Shown here piece by piece: positions 8,565 to 34,031 of a stretch of DNA of 64,000 nt; within the stretch, counting starts at the first letter, position 1, and the number at the start of each line of letters is the position of its first letter. The notes below the pieces were generated by a model, which was not told where the DNA came from, made no database searches, and saw only the letters and a list, made by a program, of their open reading frames with translations. A program made the translations under genes and the position numbers. The DNA comes from an uncultured Clostridia bacterium (GTDB lineage: Bacteria; Bacillota; Clostridia; Christensenellales; Borkfalkiaceae): NCBI GenBank assembly GCA_944330115.1, contig CALVIN010000002.1, positions 62,001-126,000 of the forward strand, written 5' to 3'.

Positions 8565-11500
8565 ACGTAAAGCTTAAATTGCAGAAGGCCGCCATCACGT
8601 TCACCGGCGTGATATTCGGCGTGATGATGACGGCAACTCCCATTCTGTGGGACAACGAAAGTACCATAACCGGCGCTCTCGGCCAGCAGAGCTCCATCGT
8701 AACCGAGGTGGACGACGGCGAAGAGCACACCGCCGAAGAACTTGAATATTACAAGTCTGAATTCGGCAGCATCAAGGAGCTCGTATACAACGGCTTCCAG
8801 GTGCAGGAGCAGGAGCAGGCGGAGGGCACCGTCCTTTTAAAGAACGATAACAACGCCCTTCCCCTCGAGAAGGGCTCAAAGGTAAGCGTATTCGGCGTTG
8901 CCGGCGCGCATCCCTTCTACGGTGCGTCCGGTTCTGGCGGCATAAACACCACCGACGCCATCAACTGGTACGACGCCTTCGCGGGCTATTCATACAGCGA
9001 TCCTTCCAACCCCAACGTTGCCCAGAAGGGTGAAACTCTCCTCGACGTAAACCCCGAGCTCTCGGCAAGCTATGATGAGTGGGGCAAACCCGGCACGTCC
9101 AGCTGGACAGGTTCCACGCCCGGCGGCCCTTACTCCTCGTCGAGCAGCGTCAGCGCCGTGCATATCGGCGACGCTCCTTGGGACGTCGTTCAGACTTCCC
9201 CCGGCTACGACGACATCTCGACCTACGGCGACGCAGCCATCTACGTCATCTCCCGTTCGGGCGGCGAAGGCTACGACCTCCCCGCAACCAGCGGCAGGAG
9301 CGCGCAGTACGGCAACGAGAACAACAACTCCGTATCTGAAAACGACGGCACCTACGGCGACTATCTCCAGCTCAGCCCCGTCGAAATAAGCGTTCTCGAG
9401 GGCCTTCAGGACCTCAAGGAAGCCGGCACTATCGACAGCATCGTGCTCATCCTCAACATGGCGAGCACCATTCAGCTCGACTTCCTCAGCGAGAACACCT
9501 ATGACATCGACGCCTGCCTGTGGACGGGTTCCGTCGGCGAAGTGGGCACCGTTGCGGTTGCCAAGCTGCTCACCGGCGAATACAACTTCAGCGGCGGCGC
9601 TTCCATGACTCTCTGGAACGATCACCTGCTCAACCCTGTGAACAACAACTTCATGGATCAAAACTACTTCTTCACCTATGAAGACGCATACGACGGCGCT
9701 CACTACTACGATCAGGCCAACGTTGCGCTCACCAGCCAGTATCAGTCGTCCTTCACGACTTACACGGTATACCAGGAGGGCATGTACCTCGGCTATCGCT
9801 ACACCGAAACGAGGTATGAGGACTATGTCACCCAGTATAACGACAAGGTAGGCGACTTCGACTACAGCGAAGTAGTTGCATATCCTTTCGGCTACGGCCT
9901 CTCCTACACGACCTTTGAATTCTCCGATTTCACTGCCGTAAAGGGCGCAGACAACACCTACGACGTATCCGTAAAGGTAACCAACACCGGCGACGTTGCC
10001 GGCAAGGTGCCCGTACAGATATATGTTGCAAAGCCCTACGGCGCATATGCGGTGGAAAATGAAATACAGGTGCCCAGCGTTGAGCTCGCAGATTTCGGCA
10101 AGACCGGCATGCTCCAGCCCGGCGATTCCGAAACGGTTGAAATAACCGTAAGCGAAGACCTCTTTGCCTCCTACGACAGCAACGGCGCCAAGACCTACAT
10201 CACCATGGACGGCGACTATTACCTCATCGCCGCTCAGAACGCCCACGAGGCCGTGAACAACCTGCTTGCGGCAAAGGGCTACACTCCCGAAAATACCGAT
10301 AACAGAATGGATGCGGCCGGCAACGAAGATCTCACCGCAAGGTTCCATTATTCCTATGATGCGAACACCTTTGCATACGCCGAAGCTACCGGCATGCCCA
10401 TAACCAACCAGTTCGACTTTGCCGACATCAACAAATATGAAGGCAGGGGCGACAACTCCGTCGAGTACTACAGCCGCGAAGACTGGGCTTCCGTTCCCAT
10501 GCTCGAGCGCCTTGCCGACGGTACCCTCGTAAAGCACAACGTTGTGCTCTCCATGACCCAGCAGATGGTTGACGATATGTACAACCAGATGGATGCGGGC
10601 TATGTGATCCAGTCCGACGACGTAGAGTATCCCACCTACGGCGCAAACAACGGCCTCAAGCTCCTCGACATGATGAACGACGACGGCACTTACAGAGATT
10701 ACGACGATCCTCTGTGGGACGACCTCCTCGATCAGCTCACCTGGGCAGATACCGTTGAGCTCCTCTCCAACGGCAGGCATAAGACTGTTGCCATCGACTC
10801 CGTTCAGAAGCCCTCCACGGGCGATGAAAACGGCCCCAACGGCTTCAACCAGTCCTACAATGCGGCCAGCGGCGGCAGCGCTTACAGCGGCCCCACCAAT
10901 CCCTATGCCGAGCGCGTTGGCGGCTTCGACGAGAACGGCGAATACATCCCCGATCCCGACCTCGGCCAGGGCTACACGACTACCGGCTTCTCCTCCAACG
11001 GCGTGCTTGCGGCAACCTTCAACAAGGAACTTGCAAGGGAAGTGGGCGAGCAGATAGGTGAAGAGGGTCTCTGGGCAGGCCAGGCAGGCCTCCTCGGCAT
11101 CGGCCTCAACATCATTCGCAGCCCCTATGCAGGCCGTACGGCCGAATACTACAGCGAATGTGGCACACTCACCGGCCTCATCGGCGCACCCGAAATTGCC
11201 GGCATCGAGTCCAAGGGCGTTCACTGCTTCATCAAACACGCAGCCATGAACGAGTGTGAGACTGCCCGTCACGGCGTGAATACCTGGGCTACCGAGCAGT
11301 CTATGCGCGAGCTCTATTTCCGTCCCTTCGAGATGGGCATCGTTGACGGCGGCTCCTTCGCTGTCATGACCTCCTTCAGCCGTATGGGTACCACCGCGGT
11401 TGCCAACTGCGTTGAATTTGCCGAGTGGCTGCGCAACGAATGCGACCTTCAGGGCATAATCGAAACCGACTGCGCGGGCGACATGACCGACGGCGCACAC

Positions 11501-12516: not shown

Positions 12517-12674
12517 TCGAGGGACGAGCGAGGCATTTCATAGCACAGCGGGTGTCCGCTGTGCGTGCCGAGCGAGATGAGTGAGCGCATATATCAGGCG
12601 CGAACGGTGACCGAGTGCGGTGTTTACCTTGCACTGCGCGAGAAGGGTAGGGTGGGGTTTCACTCGTCCCTCGA
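12517..12674. repeat. 158-bp structured element with 12-bp terminal inverted repeats, next to tRNA-Ser
   Basis: TCGAGGGACGAG (12517-12528) and its exact inverse CTCGTCCCTCGA (12663-12674) bound a non-coding segment. Inside is the hairpin CACAGCGG-gtgt-CCGCTGTG (12544-12563) followed by CGTGCCGAGCG. The same hairpin core (CGG-4 nt-CCG with changed but still paired arms) and flanks recur at 24831-24852 and 32789-32812. No transposase gene is present, so this would be a MITE- or REP-like element. The rest of the gap 12355-12735 has no gene. Confidence 0.6.
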
Positions 12675-12696
12675 GTCCCTCTCAGTTATCAGTTCA

Positions 12697-12740
12697 CGCC
12701 ACAAAAAAAGGCAGACGAGTGTCTGCCTTTTTTTGTGGCG
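12697..12740 (-). terminator. Terminator of tRNA-Ser; its stem includes the tRNA 3' end
   Basis: A perfect 20-bp inverted repeat (12697-12716 with 12721-12740, loop GAGT). Read on the minus strand it starts at the last acceptor base, discriminator and CCA of the tRNA and ends in a T7 run, an intrinsic terminator directly after the tRNA. The far arm therefore carries an inverted copy of the tRNA end. Confidence 0.8.
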
Positions 12741-32526: not shown

Positions 32527-32555
32527 TTGATTTTTTTTGCGATATATTGTATTAT
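32527..32555 (+). promoter_or_regulatory. Promoter of tRNA-Arg
   Basis: TTGATT (32527-32532), 17-bp spacer, TATTAT (32550-32555). The start would be about 40 nt before the mature tRNA 5' end. Confidence 0.75.
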
Positions 32556-32601: not shown

Positions 32602-32676
32602 GCTTCCGTAGTTAAATGGATATAACAGCCCCCTCCTAAGGGGCCGTTGTGGGTTCGATTCCCGCCGGGAGTACCA
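32602..32676 (+). tRNA. tRNA-Arg (anticodon CCT)
   Basis: 75 nt including encoded CCA. The anticodon arm is GCCCC-CTCCTAA-GGGGC with anticodon CCT, reading AGG, a codon used often here. The T-arm contains GGGTTCGATTCCC. The acceptor stem GCTTCCG/CGGGAGT contains two G-U pairs (1-72 and 4-69), which is slightly unusual. Its 3' end is duplicated 179 bp downstream. Confidence 0.93.
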
Positions 32677-32855
32677 AGCACAATGCCGCCGCTTTTGCGG
32701 CGGTATTGTGGTTTTAAGGCGAGCAATGCGGGAATCGAGGGGAGGCAAGCAAGCATGCTTGCGCAGGTCGGCGGGCTCTACCGCCGACAAAACAGCGGAC
32801 ACCCGCTGTTTTCCGTGCGCGTCCGCTCAAGGCGCGATTCCCGCCGGGAGTACCA
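32656..32855 (+). repeat. att-like duplication of the tRNA-Arg 3' end flanking a small element
   Basis: The last 21 nt of the tRNA (ending CCCGCCGGGAGTACCA) at 32656-32676 recur exactly at 32835-32855. The GC hairpin after each copy is also duplicated. Between them are an inverted fragment GCGGGAATCG (32728-32737), a GCAAGCATGCTTGC palindrome, a GTCGGCGG/CCGCCGAC stem and the hairpin AAAACAGCGG-acac-CCGCTGTTTT (32789-32812), the same core as at 12544 and 24831. No coding sequence is supported. Confidence 0.75.
32679..32716 (+). terminator. Terminator of tRNA-Arg
   Basis: CACAATGCCGCCGC / GCGGCGGTATTGTG, a 14-bp stem with TTTT loop, then GTTTTAA. Confidence 0.85.
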
Positions 32856-32857
32856 AT

Positions 32858-32901
32858 CAATGCCGCCGCTCTTTTTGCGGCGGCATTGTGCTTTTATTTT
32901 T
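32858..32901 (+). terminator. Duplicate of the tRNA-Arg terminator, directly before the permease gene
   Basis: CAATGCCGCCGC / GCGGCGGCATTG with a T-rich loop, then TGCTTTTATTTTTTT. It ends only a few bases before the start codon of the next gene. Confidence 0.8.
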
Positions 32902-32906
32902 TTACT

Positions 32907-34031
32907 ATGAAAAAAGTTGCTTTGGCGGTATGGAAATTTATAAAGAGCGAAGTGGTGCTGTGCGTGGCGCTGCTGCTCGCCATAGTTTCGGCGTTCTTCG
33001 TTCCGCCCAACGCCGAATACTTAAACTATATCGACTGGGACACGCTCGCCCTGCTGTTCGGGCTGATGGCGGTGATGAAGGGCTTTCAGGGTGCGGGGCT
33101 GTTTGACTTTATGGCCAACAAGCTGCTCGGCAAGGCCAATACCTCGCGCAAGCTGATGTTCGTGCTCGTCTTTCTGCCCTTCTTTTTGAGCATGGTAGTC
33201 ACCAACGACGTATCTTTAATAACTTTTGTGCCTTTCGGCATAATAGTGTTCAAATCGGCGGGGCTTGAAAAGCGCATAATACCGCTTGTCGTATTGCAGA
33301 CGCTTGCCGCAAACCTTGGCAGTATGCTCACGCCCATGGGCAACCCGCAGAACCTGTATCTCTACAACGCCTCGGGCATGTCGTTCGGCGAGCTTATTCT
33401 CATAATGCTGCCCTACGTGGCACTCTCGGGAGTGGCGCTCGCCGTCATCATCTGTTGCTTCAAATCGGAGCCCGTCGAATACGAGTGCCGCGAGTCAAAA
33501 CTGGGCGGCGCGTTTTCGCTCACCTGGCCGGCGGTATTCTTTGTTGTGTGCCTTCTGGGTCTGTTCGACGTCATCCCGCCCCTCATAATAGCGGCGGTGG
33601 TGCTCGTGTTCCTGCTCATTGCCGACCGCAAGTCGCTTGCAAAAGTCGACTATTCTCTGCTGCTCACTTTCGTCGCGCTCTTCATATTCATCGGCAACAT
33701 GAAGAATATCGACGTGTTCAAAAATTTCCTCTCGTCGGTCATATCGGGCAACGAGGAGATAGTGGCGGTGCTGGCAAGCCAGGTGATAAGCAACGTCCCC
33801 GCGGCGCTCCTGCTTTCGGGTTTTTCATCCGAGTGGCAGGCGCTTATAGTCGGGTGCAACCTGGGCGGCCTGGGCACGCTCATCGCCTCTATGGCAAGCC
33901 TCATCTCCTACAAGTCGCTCGCGCACGAATATCCGCACAAGCGCGCGGCCTACCTCGGGCAGTTCACCATATACAACGTGGCCTTCCTCGCCGTGCTCGT
34001 GGGGTTGAGCTATCTGATAGCGCTGTTCTGA
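32907..34031 (+). CDS. SLC13/ArsB-NhaD-type permease (YbiR-like)
   Basis: 374 aa from MKKVALAVWKFIKSE. About ten hydrophobic helices; the motif VVTNDVSLITFVPFGI and the later SQVISNVPAALLLSGF are the paired re-entrant signatures of the ion-transporter superfamily (DASS, ArsB, NhaD, CitM). The loop LTPMGNPQNLYLY is also typical. It moves an anion (dicarboxylate, citrate, sulfate, arsenite) or Na+/H+; the substrate cannot be told. No Shine-Dalgarno sequence precedes the ATG: the DNA immediately upstream is a terminator T-run created by the duplicated tRNA end. In-frame TTG at 32886 is an unlikely alternative because it lies in the hairpin. Confidence 0.85.
   Translation: MKKVALAVWKFIKSEVVLCVALLLAIVSAFFVPPNAEYLNYIDWDTLALLFGLMAVMKGFQGAGLFDFMANKLLGKANTSRKLMFVLVFLPFFLSMVVTNDVSLITFVPFGIIVFKSAGLEKRIIPLVVLQTLAANLGSMLTPMGNPQNLYLYNASGMSFGELILIMLPYVALSGVALAVIICCFKSEPVEYECRESKLGGAFSLTWPAVFFVVCLLGLFDVIPPLIIAAVVLVFLLIADRKSLAKVDYSLLLTFVALFIFIGNMKNIDVFKNFLSSVISGNEEIVAVLASQVISNVPAALLLSGFSSEWQALIVGCNLGGLGTLIASMASLISYKSLAHEYPHKRAAYLGQFTIYNVAFLAVLVGLSYLIALF

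Follow-up and report, generated by a model that had tools for sequence, protein, structure and literature searches.

The window analysed here, a stretch of 64,000 nucleotides from an uncultured Clostridia bacterium of the family Borkfalkiaceae, carries a tRNA-Arg(CCT) gene with a GNAT acetyltransferase gene upstream and a CitMHS transporter gene downstream. Behind the tRNA gene stands a single unit, with no tandem array, in which a GC-rich core is enclosed between two copies of the tRNA 3' part. The features of the locus are the following.

32527..32555, +, sigma-70-type promoter-like site of the tRNA gene (TTGATT-17-TATTAT), 9 of 12 matches; weak when taken alone, with 0.7 such sites expected in shuffles
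32602..32676, +, tRNA-Arg(CCT) gene, its CCA encoded; T-loop position C56 at 32656
32656..32676, +, tRNA 3' part, first copy (positions 56-76)
32679..32715, +, terminator-like hairpin 1 with T-rich tail
32725..32855, +, entire RtT-like unit, matched by covariance model R1 at 150.7 bits; the window copy is among the 16 sequences of R1 and so matches by construction
32728..32738, +, inverted copy of tRNA positions 55-65 (11 nt), 5' strand of the outer helix P1
32749..32762, +, core hairpin 1
32767..32788, +, core hairpin 2; 5 of the 16 aligned units have G-A and A-G in place of two G-C pairs
32789..32812, +, core hairpin 3, with loop ACAC (AAAACAGCGG-ACAC-CCGCTGTTTT)
32819..32835, +, hairpin 4, immediately 5' of the 3' copy
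32835..32855, +, tRNA 3' part, second copy (positions 56-76, with CCA), 3' strand of P1
32858..32903, +, terminator-like hairpin 2 with T-rich tail

As the earlier note on this DNA had it, the last 21 nt of the tRNA recur exactly 179 bp downstream (32656-32676 and 32835-32855), without a single change, and 24 of 25 nt agree when the comparison is extended to 25 nt. Its observation that a similar hairpin follows each copy also holds, the two terminator hairpins being 84% alike over 32 nt and both ending in T-rich tails, as does that of an inverted T-arm piece inside the insert (11 nt, 32728-32738), and the 158 bp between the copies leave indeed no room for an integrase. The statement that the insert shares a CGG-ACAC-CCG hairpin with an element at a tRNA-Ser gene was borne out with one qualification: the hairpin is found in the Arg insert and behind tRNA-Ser(CGA) (12543-12564, minus strand), but the Ser locus lacks a direct 3' copy. 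Judged by eye, the hairpin module at tRNA-Ser(CGA) appears to be of another repeat type, here called type B. The stretch behind this tRNA (12543-12736, minus strand) consists of a terminator-like hairpin, an inverted T-arm (12671-12683, with one mismatch) and the type-B module, and looks like a half unit or a decayed unit.

Structure and covariation of the unit

Sixteen units from Arg, Pro, Leu, Val, Ser and Gly tRNAs (16 of 27 rows) make up the class-I alignment. The class-I unit is composed of an outer helix, formed by the inverted and the direct tRNA copy, and of four hairpins, giving 34 pairs, and 96.6% of the 531 cells across the 16 units are paired. Changes on both sides were found in 19 of the 34 pairs (6 of 9 in the outer helix alone), and covariation in the 16 units reached 0.381, as compared to 0.125 in shuffled and 0.056-0.083 in slid alignments. 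Besides the five units with G-A and A-G at two pairs of hairpin 2, a sixth has one such pair. The window unit folds with a z of -4.78 and the complement strand with a z of -4.02; since the complement folds nearly as well, the RNA strand is favoured rather than proven, and room is left for hairpins that act in DNA.

When the whole 306 nt are folded, the inverted copy pairs with the T-arm of the tRNA itself and not with the second copy. The unit fold differs therefore from the energy minimum of a full readthrough transcript, and such a transcript could misfold its own tRNA; the second 3' copy may, on this folding model, act there as a harmless partner. A resemblance of the right junction to a ribozyme end was dropped for lack of Rfam support. 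Rfam searches at E 1 of eight unit-bearing loci returned only tRNA and sub-threshold matches, with no credible family for the cores.

Unit ends and their host tRNAs

In a set of 64 units of all classes, which includes near-duplicates and was picked for resemblance to the tRNA, so that it cannot itself show tRNA matching, 26 units showed 9 nt or more of strict complementarity to the end of their own tRNA, against 1% for other tRNAs, while in the other 38 the longest strict complementarity was below 9 nt. Pairing begins at position 56 in 27 of the 32 units with at least 8 nt of complementarity, the remaining 32 having shorter stretches. The host tRNA does not enter model R1, and a check on the ends of its hits is hence free of that choice by likeness. 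Fifty-one hits, hand-picked mostly from loci with a tRNA, some of them belonging to the model or to overlapping loci, were set against the closest upstream tRNA of the same strand, which 50 of them have within 1500 nt; its last 20 nt are matched at 16 or more places in 47 of the 50, the three exceptions matching at 9, 14 and 15 of 20 places.

In the genome of the window (G000), the cores at Arg, Pro and Leu are 95-97% alike and their ends match three different tRNAs. Core identity, compared as a test for concerted evolution, was 0.79 in 8 within-genome pairs, 0.73 in 8 pairs at the same tRNA across genomes and 0.74 in 104 other pairs.

Occurrence in the genome and in relatives

The Arg insert matches eight other places in G000, six of which adjoin tRNA genes (Pro three times, Leu-TAG, Ser-TGA and Leu-CAG), while of the other two one lies at the end of a contig and one has no tRNA. 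Downstream direct copies of their own 3' part were found at 12 of 36 G000 tRNAs against 0.8 expected, the null being the comparison of each tRNA with the flanks of other tRNAs, with other tRNAs masked, and the denominators being the tRNAs that ARAGORN found in the stretches read. By the same masked comparison such copies stand at 6 of 34 tRNAs in G001 (leaving out one internal match, at Asp), 6 of 51 in G025, 6 of 37 in G041, which belongs to another family, and 0 of 38 in G037, with foreign flanks giving 0 to 0.8 per genome in all five; as the assemblies are drafts and arrays sometimes end contigs, counts in relatives may be low. The copies at Ile in G041 are more closely spaced (82-84 nt). 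When the search was tightened to the last 20 nt with no more than 4 mismatches within 3 kb, 10 of the 36 G000 tRNAs were retained, Tyr and Leu-CAA being missed.

Among 51 downstream 3' copies in G000, G001, G025 and G041, 24 start at C56, 8 at 44 or 45, 14 at 57-61 and 5 elsewhere. Nine direct copies in G000 start at 56, and four of the inverted copies found there reach exactly to 55; upstream copies end at 57, 34/35 and other positions. The first unit starts 46-56 nt behind the tRNA in most loci, and tandem units, mostly of 157-211 nt and up to 309, were seen in G000 behind the tRNAs for Pro, Trp, Lys and Leu and in a relative behind tRNA-Gly. Upstream copies of the 5' part were detected by strict score at 5 of 25 tRNA-Arg(CCT) loci. 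Copies of this kind precede tRNA-Arg, instead or also, in L072, L080, L086, L088 and L064, where they end at 57 or 58 and run into another core; in these loci and in L074 the copied 5' part ends in the T-loop, several copies having a changed anticodon arm, which carries CCTTTCG in L064, L072 and L074.

Another core class, with a direct copy starting at 44, stands behind tRNA-Thr(CGT) in G000, G001, G025 and G041, and its strict pattern occurs in 4 of 297 genomes, from three families. In L306 (1150-1782, genome G173), tandem Thr-type units follow the 3' half of a tRNA-Thr whose 5' part is missing, which is how the distal end of an island would look, and ARAGORN calls an odd 85-nt tRNA-Thr inside one of them. 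Elsewhere in G000 (L009, about 10390-10480; G000:C2 near 260.4 kb), an ORF that by eye looks like rubredoxin is followed by a core end and two 3' fragments resembling tRNA-Leu, with no tRNA found nearby.

Hairpin 3 also occurs away from tRNA genes: in 80 of the 96 stretches listed, cut-off stretches included, 67 of 90 matches have no ARAGORN tRNA within 1500 nt, and the carriers among these 80 stretches are Clostridia MAGs, including Candidatus Coproplasma and Candidatus Borkfalkia. Dispersed intergenic type-B modules, with GAGATGAG and GGTGMCCGAG between their hairpins, were observed in L093-L171 (e.g., L093, L096, L101), from Clostridia MAGs, many of them of isolate Lapin-025. By eye, type-B modules are nested in class-I units at L064 (1623-1770) and L203 (about 1700-1965), one in the loop of hairpin 4 and one after GGG, an arrangement that suggests small hairpin modules inserted into one another.

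The R1 search detected nine units in G000, and units in 17 of the 297 sampled genomes of the order, all 17 belonging to the same family as G000, which has 23 members in the sample. ARAGORN found a tRNA in 26 of the 36 loci brought in by R1; six of the other ten lie within 500 nt of a contig end and four inside contigs (L271, L286, L289, L293). All that precedes the unit in L293 is the final bases of a tRNA-Pro, whereas those in L286 and L289 abut, according to Pfam, a tyrosine integrase and a large serine recombinase, respectively. The recombinase gene of L289 (1680-3065, minus strand) runs up to a GCACCA end and a terminator-like hairpin, and this end looks like that of a tRNA-Leu unit. The unit in L271 abuts an ORF that by eye resembles the L289 protein and has no Pfam hit. 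We read L286 and L289 as putative islands that split a tRNA-plus-unit locus. As to the larger elements with the same ends and an integrase that the earlier note proposed to look for in relatives, a limited search revealed none using the core as its own end.

Presence and absence at tRNA-Arg(CCT)

An orthologous locus without the insert, as the earlier note had envisaged, exists in G029, where both neighbour genes are kept (66% and 79% identical), no unit stands downstream of tRNA-Arg(CCT), and the distance from tRNA to transporter is 71 nt as compared to 230 nt in the window; two units stand upstream of the tRNA instead. In G014 the upstream neighbour is retained, and the class-I unit found there pairs its hairpins differently. 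By the strict rule, a downstream 3' copy is present in 8 of 25 tRNA-Arg(CCT) loci, some of which have short flanks and two of which are from other families, the degraded copy of L064 being uncounted. At one fixed position the Arg(CCT) unit either occurs or is missing, and since units vary between species they have no essential role.

Comparison with RtT

The arrangement has a known counterpart in E. coli K-12, where the tyrT locus gave four matches to RtT RNA (RF00391; the tyrT/tyrV repeats, rttR/tpr), in units of 175-178 bp behind the tRNA gene. Their parts follow one another as described here, from a tRNA 3' piece in inverted orientation through a core of several hairpins to a direct copy of the tRNA 3' end with CCA, and they fold with the same kind of outer helix, which the Rfam consensus also shows. 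The clostridial unit shares with RtT its place behind a tRNA gene, its orientation, the outer helix of inverted and direct 3' ends and the CCA end, as well as, at tRNAs other than that of the window locus, which has one unit, the occurrence of tandem units of comparable size (about 178 bp in RtT). Unlike RtT, the clostridial units have more than one core class, occur at ten tRNAs of one genome read, have an outer helix that follows the host tRNA and, in the copies read, are preceded by a terminator-like hairpin.

RtT has been described from enterobacteria (PMC2965389) and Pasteurellaceae (PMC4986893). Passages of the latter source report its release from tRNA operon transcripts and Northern signals for two members upstream of A. 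pleuropneumoniae tRNA-Asn and tRNA-Lys genes (PMC4986893), while passages of the former assign the rtT-like repeats of enterobacteria to the BIMEs and propose them as attenuators (PMC2965389).

At the level of homology, RtT gave no match in the window at the Rfam gathering score and none in the eight unit-bearing loci at E 1, nor was any match over the cut-off found in 61 genomes (that of the window and its relatives), with the E. coli control detected. A sole RtT match of 25.4 bits in G000 was dropped, since it sits in a histidine-biosynthesis ORF with Pfam PRA-CH and PRA-PH. In the opposite direction, R1 run at E 10 against two E. coli tRNA-Tyr loci returned nothing, so that homology of its core to RtT was not detected. 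Judged from sequence, the window unit is RtT-like in its anatomy but fails the test of homology with RtT. The arrangement is known from the RtT repeats of E. coli, but here, in a clostridial lineage, it is found at many tRNA genes of different kinds; among the matches listed in the literature, no title describes such units in this lineage.

Discussion

In our view the Arg insert is probably one unit of an RtT-like, tRNA-templated structured RNA element, whose expression we infer. The inverted and direct copies rebuild a T-stem-like helix, with the core in the place of the T-loop. RNA polymerase reading through terminator 1 would make the unit RNA on the tRNA transcript, although with a 14-bp hairpin at terminator 1 readthrough may be rare, and terminator 2 would end the transcript. 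The tRNA-like base and the CCA end would expose the unit RNA to tRNA-processing enzymes, which might then release it, by analogy with what is reported for RtT in E. coli. Recombination between direct copies could expand and shrink the number of units, and the core may have spread between tRNA genes with its ends copied from the local tRNA. As to the origin of the inverted and direct copies, the candidates are still an integrase crossover at the T-loop, a mobile core inserted with ends templated by the target, and gene conversion between long-established units.

The earlier note took the duplicated tRNA end for the footprint of integration at a tRNA gene, flanked by attL and attR. The locus is insertion-like in so far as an empty site exists in G029, other tRNAs have duplicated 3' ends as well (12 of 36 in G000) and the copies start at known crossover subsites, but a plain attL/attR scar does not fit a covarying unit of RtT anatomy, without integrase, with an inverted copy in its outer helix and with ends matched to the tRNA at different tRNAs. 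Site-specific integration, in which small circles or larger islands entered the T-loop by means of a tyrosine (or serine) integrase, the insert being a minimal satellite or what remained once an island was lost, appears improbable to us for related reasons: there is no integrase in the insert, plain integration makes no inverted copy, and the core structure is conserved at different tRNAs, yet the 3' copy fits the local tRNA (47 of 50), which a moving circle would not leave behind. Moreover, the core had no match in the phages and plasmids searched, and the exact hairpin had none in viral contigs. The breakpoints argue for it, with downstream copies starting at the T-loop (56), the variable loop (44/45) and nearby positions and upstream copies ending at 57, 34/35 and elsewhere, in agreement with the crossover subsites (anticodon loop, T-loop and T/acceptor junction) and additional 5' fragments given for tRNA-targeting integrases in passages of PMC4383910, and so do the integrase and serine recombinase genes adjoining the units of L286 and L289; in the same passages, tyrosine integrases are the sole kind known to target tRNA genes (PMC4383910). 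Islander-type islands and satellites resemble the unit in having a displaced tRNA 3' fragment and breakpoints at the T-loop or anticodon loop, whereas the unit is a 160-bp insert without integrase, with a covarying core and an extra inverted copy. A non-autonomous mobile element is a possible origin, which we nevertheless rate as unlikely and which, concerning origin, partly overlaps with the RtT-like explanation: its core would have entered at hairpin loops, and the tRNA 3' half would have been copied from the broken end once in each orientation, by snap-back over the terminator hairpin. The closely similar cores of G000 with ends matching three tRNAs, the meeting of its inverted and direct copies at 55 and 56, the type-B modules seen by eye inside class-I units at L064 and L203, and the tRNA-Leu fragment with a core end where no tRNA was found nearby are consistent with such an element; no enzyme was identified, however, the identity of cores within the genome barely exceeds that at the same tRNA across genomes (0.79 vs. 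0.73, 8 pairs each), the picture could equally have come from gene conversion between old units, and the Thr type, common to three families, looks old and vertical. A broader conjecture, put forward tentatively and held to be rather unlikely, is that small mobile structured RNAs home to the hairpin loops of tRNA genes, copy the 3' half of the target both ways and rebuild their own T-stem and CCA, with E. coli RtT as one outlying example.

That the insert is a reinforced terminator or a BIME-like palindromic DNA repeat behind tRNA genes, with no specific RNA product, would agree with the terminator-like hairpins flanking the unit, with the matches of hairpin 3 far from tRNAs (67 of 90, in 80 of 96 stretches) and with the placing of enterobacterial rtT-like repeats among the BIMEs, as proposed attenuators, in passages of PMC2965389; we consider it decidedly improbable, as it leaves unexplained the outer helix made from the host tRNA, the CCA end and the frequent start at C56. 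BIME and REP-like repeats are, as the units described here, short intergenic multi-hairpin modules, some of them nested, but the ends of the units are copied from the host tRNA, and a tRNA is found in 26 of the 36 R1 loci, while of the remaining ten six lie close to a contig end and at least two adjoin an integrase or recombinase gene. BIME/REP repeats are mobilised by the RAYT transposase. A one-off tandem duplication of the tRNA 3' end is compatible with the presence of only two copies at the window locus, yet it is scarcely credible when the same architecture stands at other tRNAs, in this and in other species, and when an orthologous empty site exists in G029.

Islander rejects candidates below 2 kb according to passages of PMC4383910, and would thus not report units as short as these. 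With an RtT-like, tRNA-templated structured RNA element as the preferred reading, the different tRNAs, core classes and empty sites of this lineage constitute natural replicates for testing function and origin. The same anatomy without detectable homology suggests a general route by which tRNA genes may gain processed by-product RNAs, or a general kind of insertion aimed at tRNA loops.
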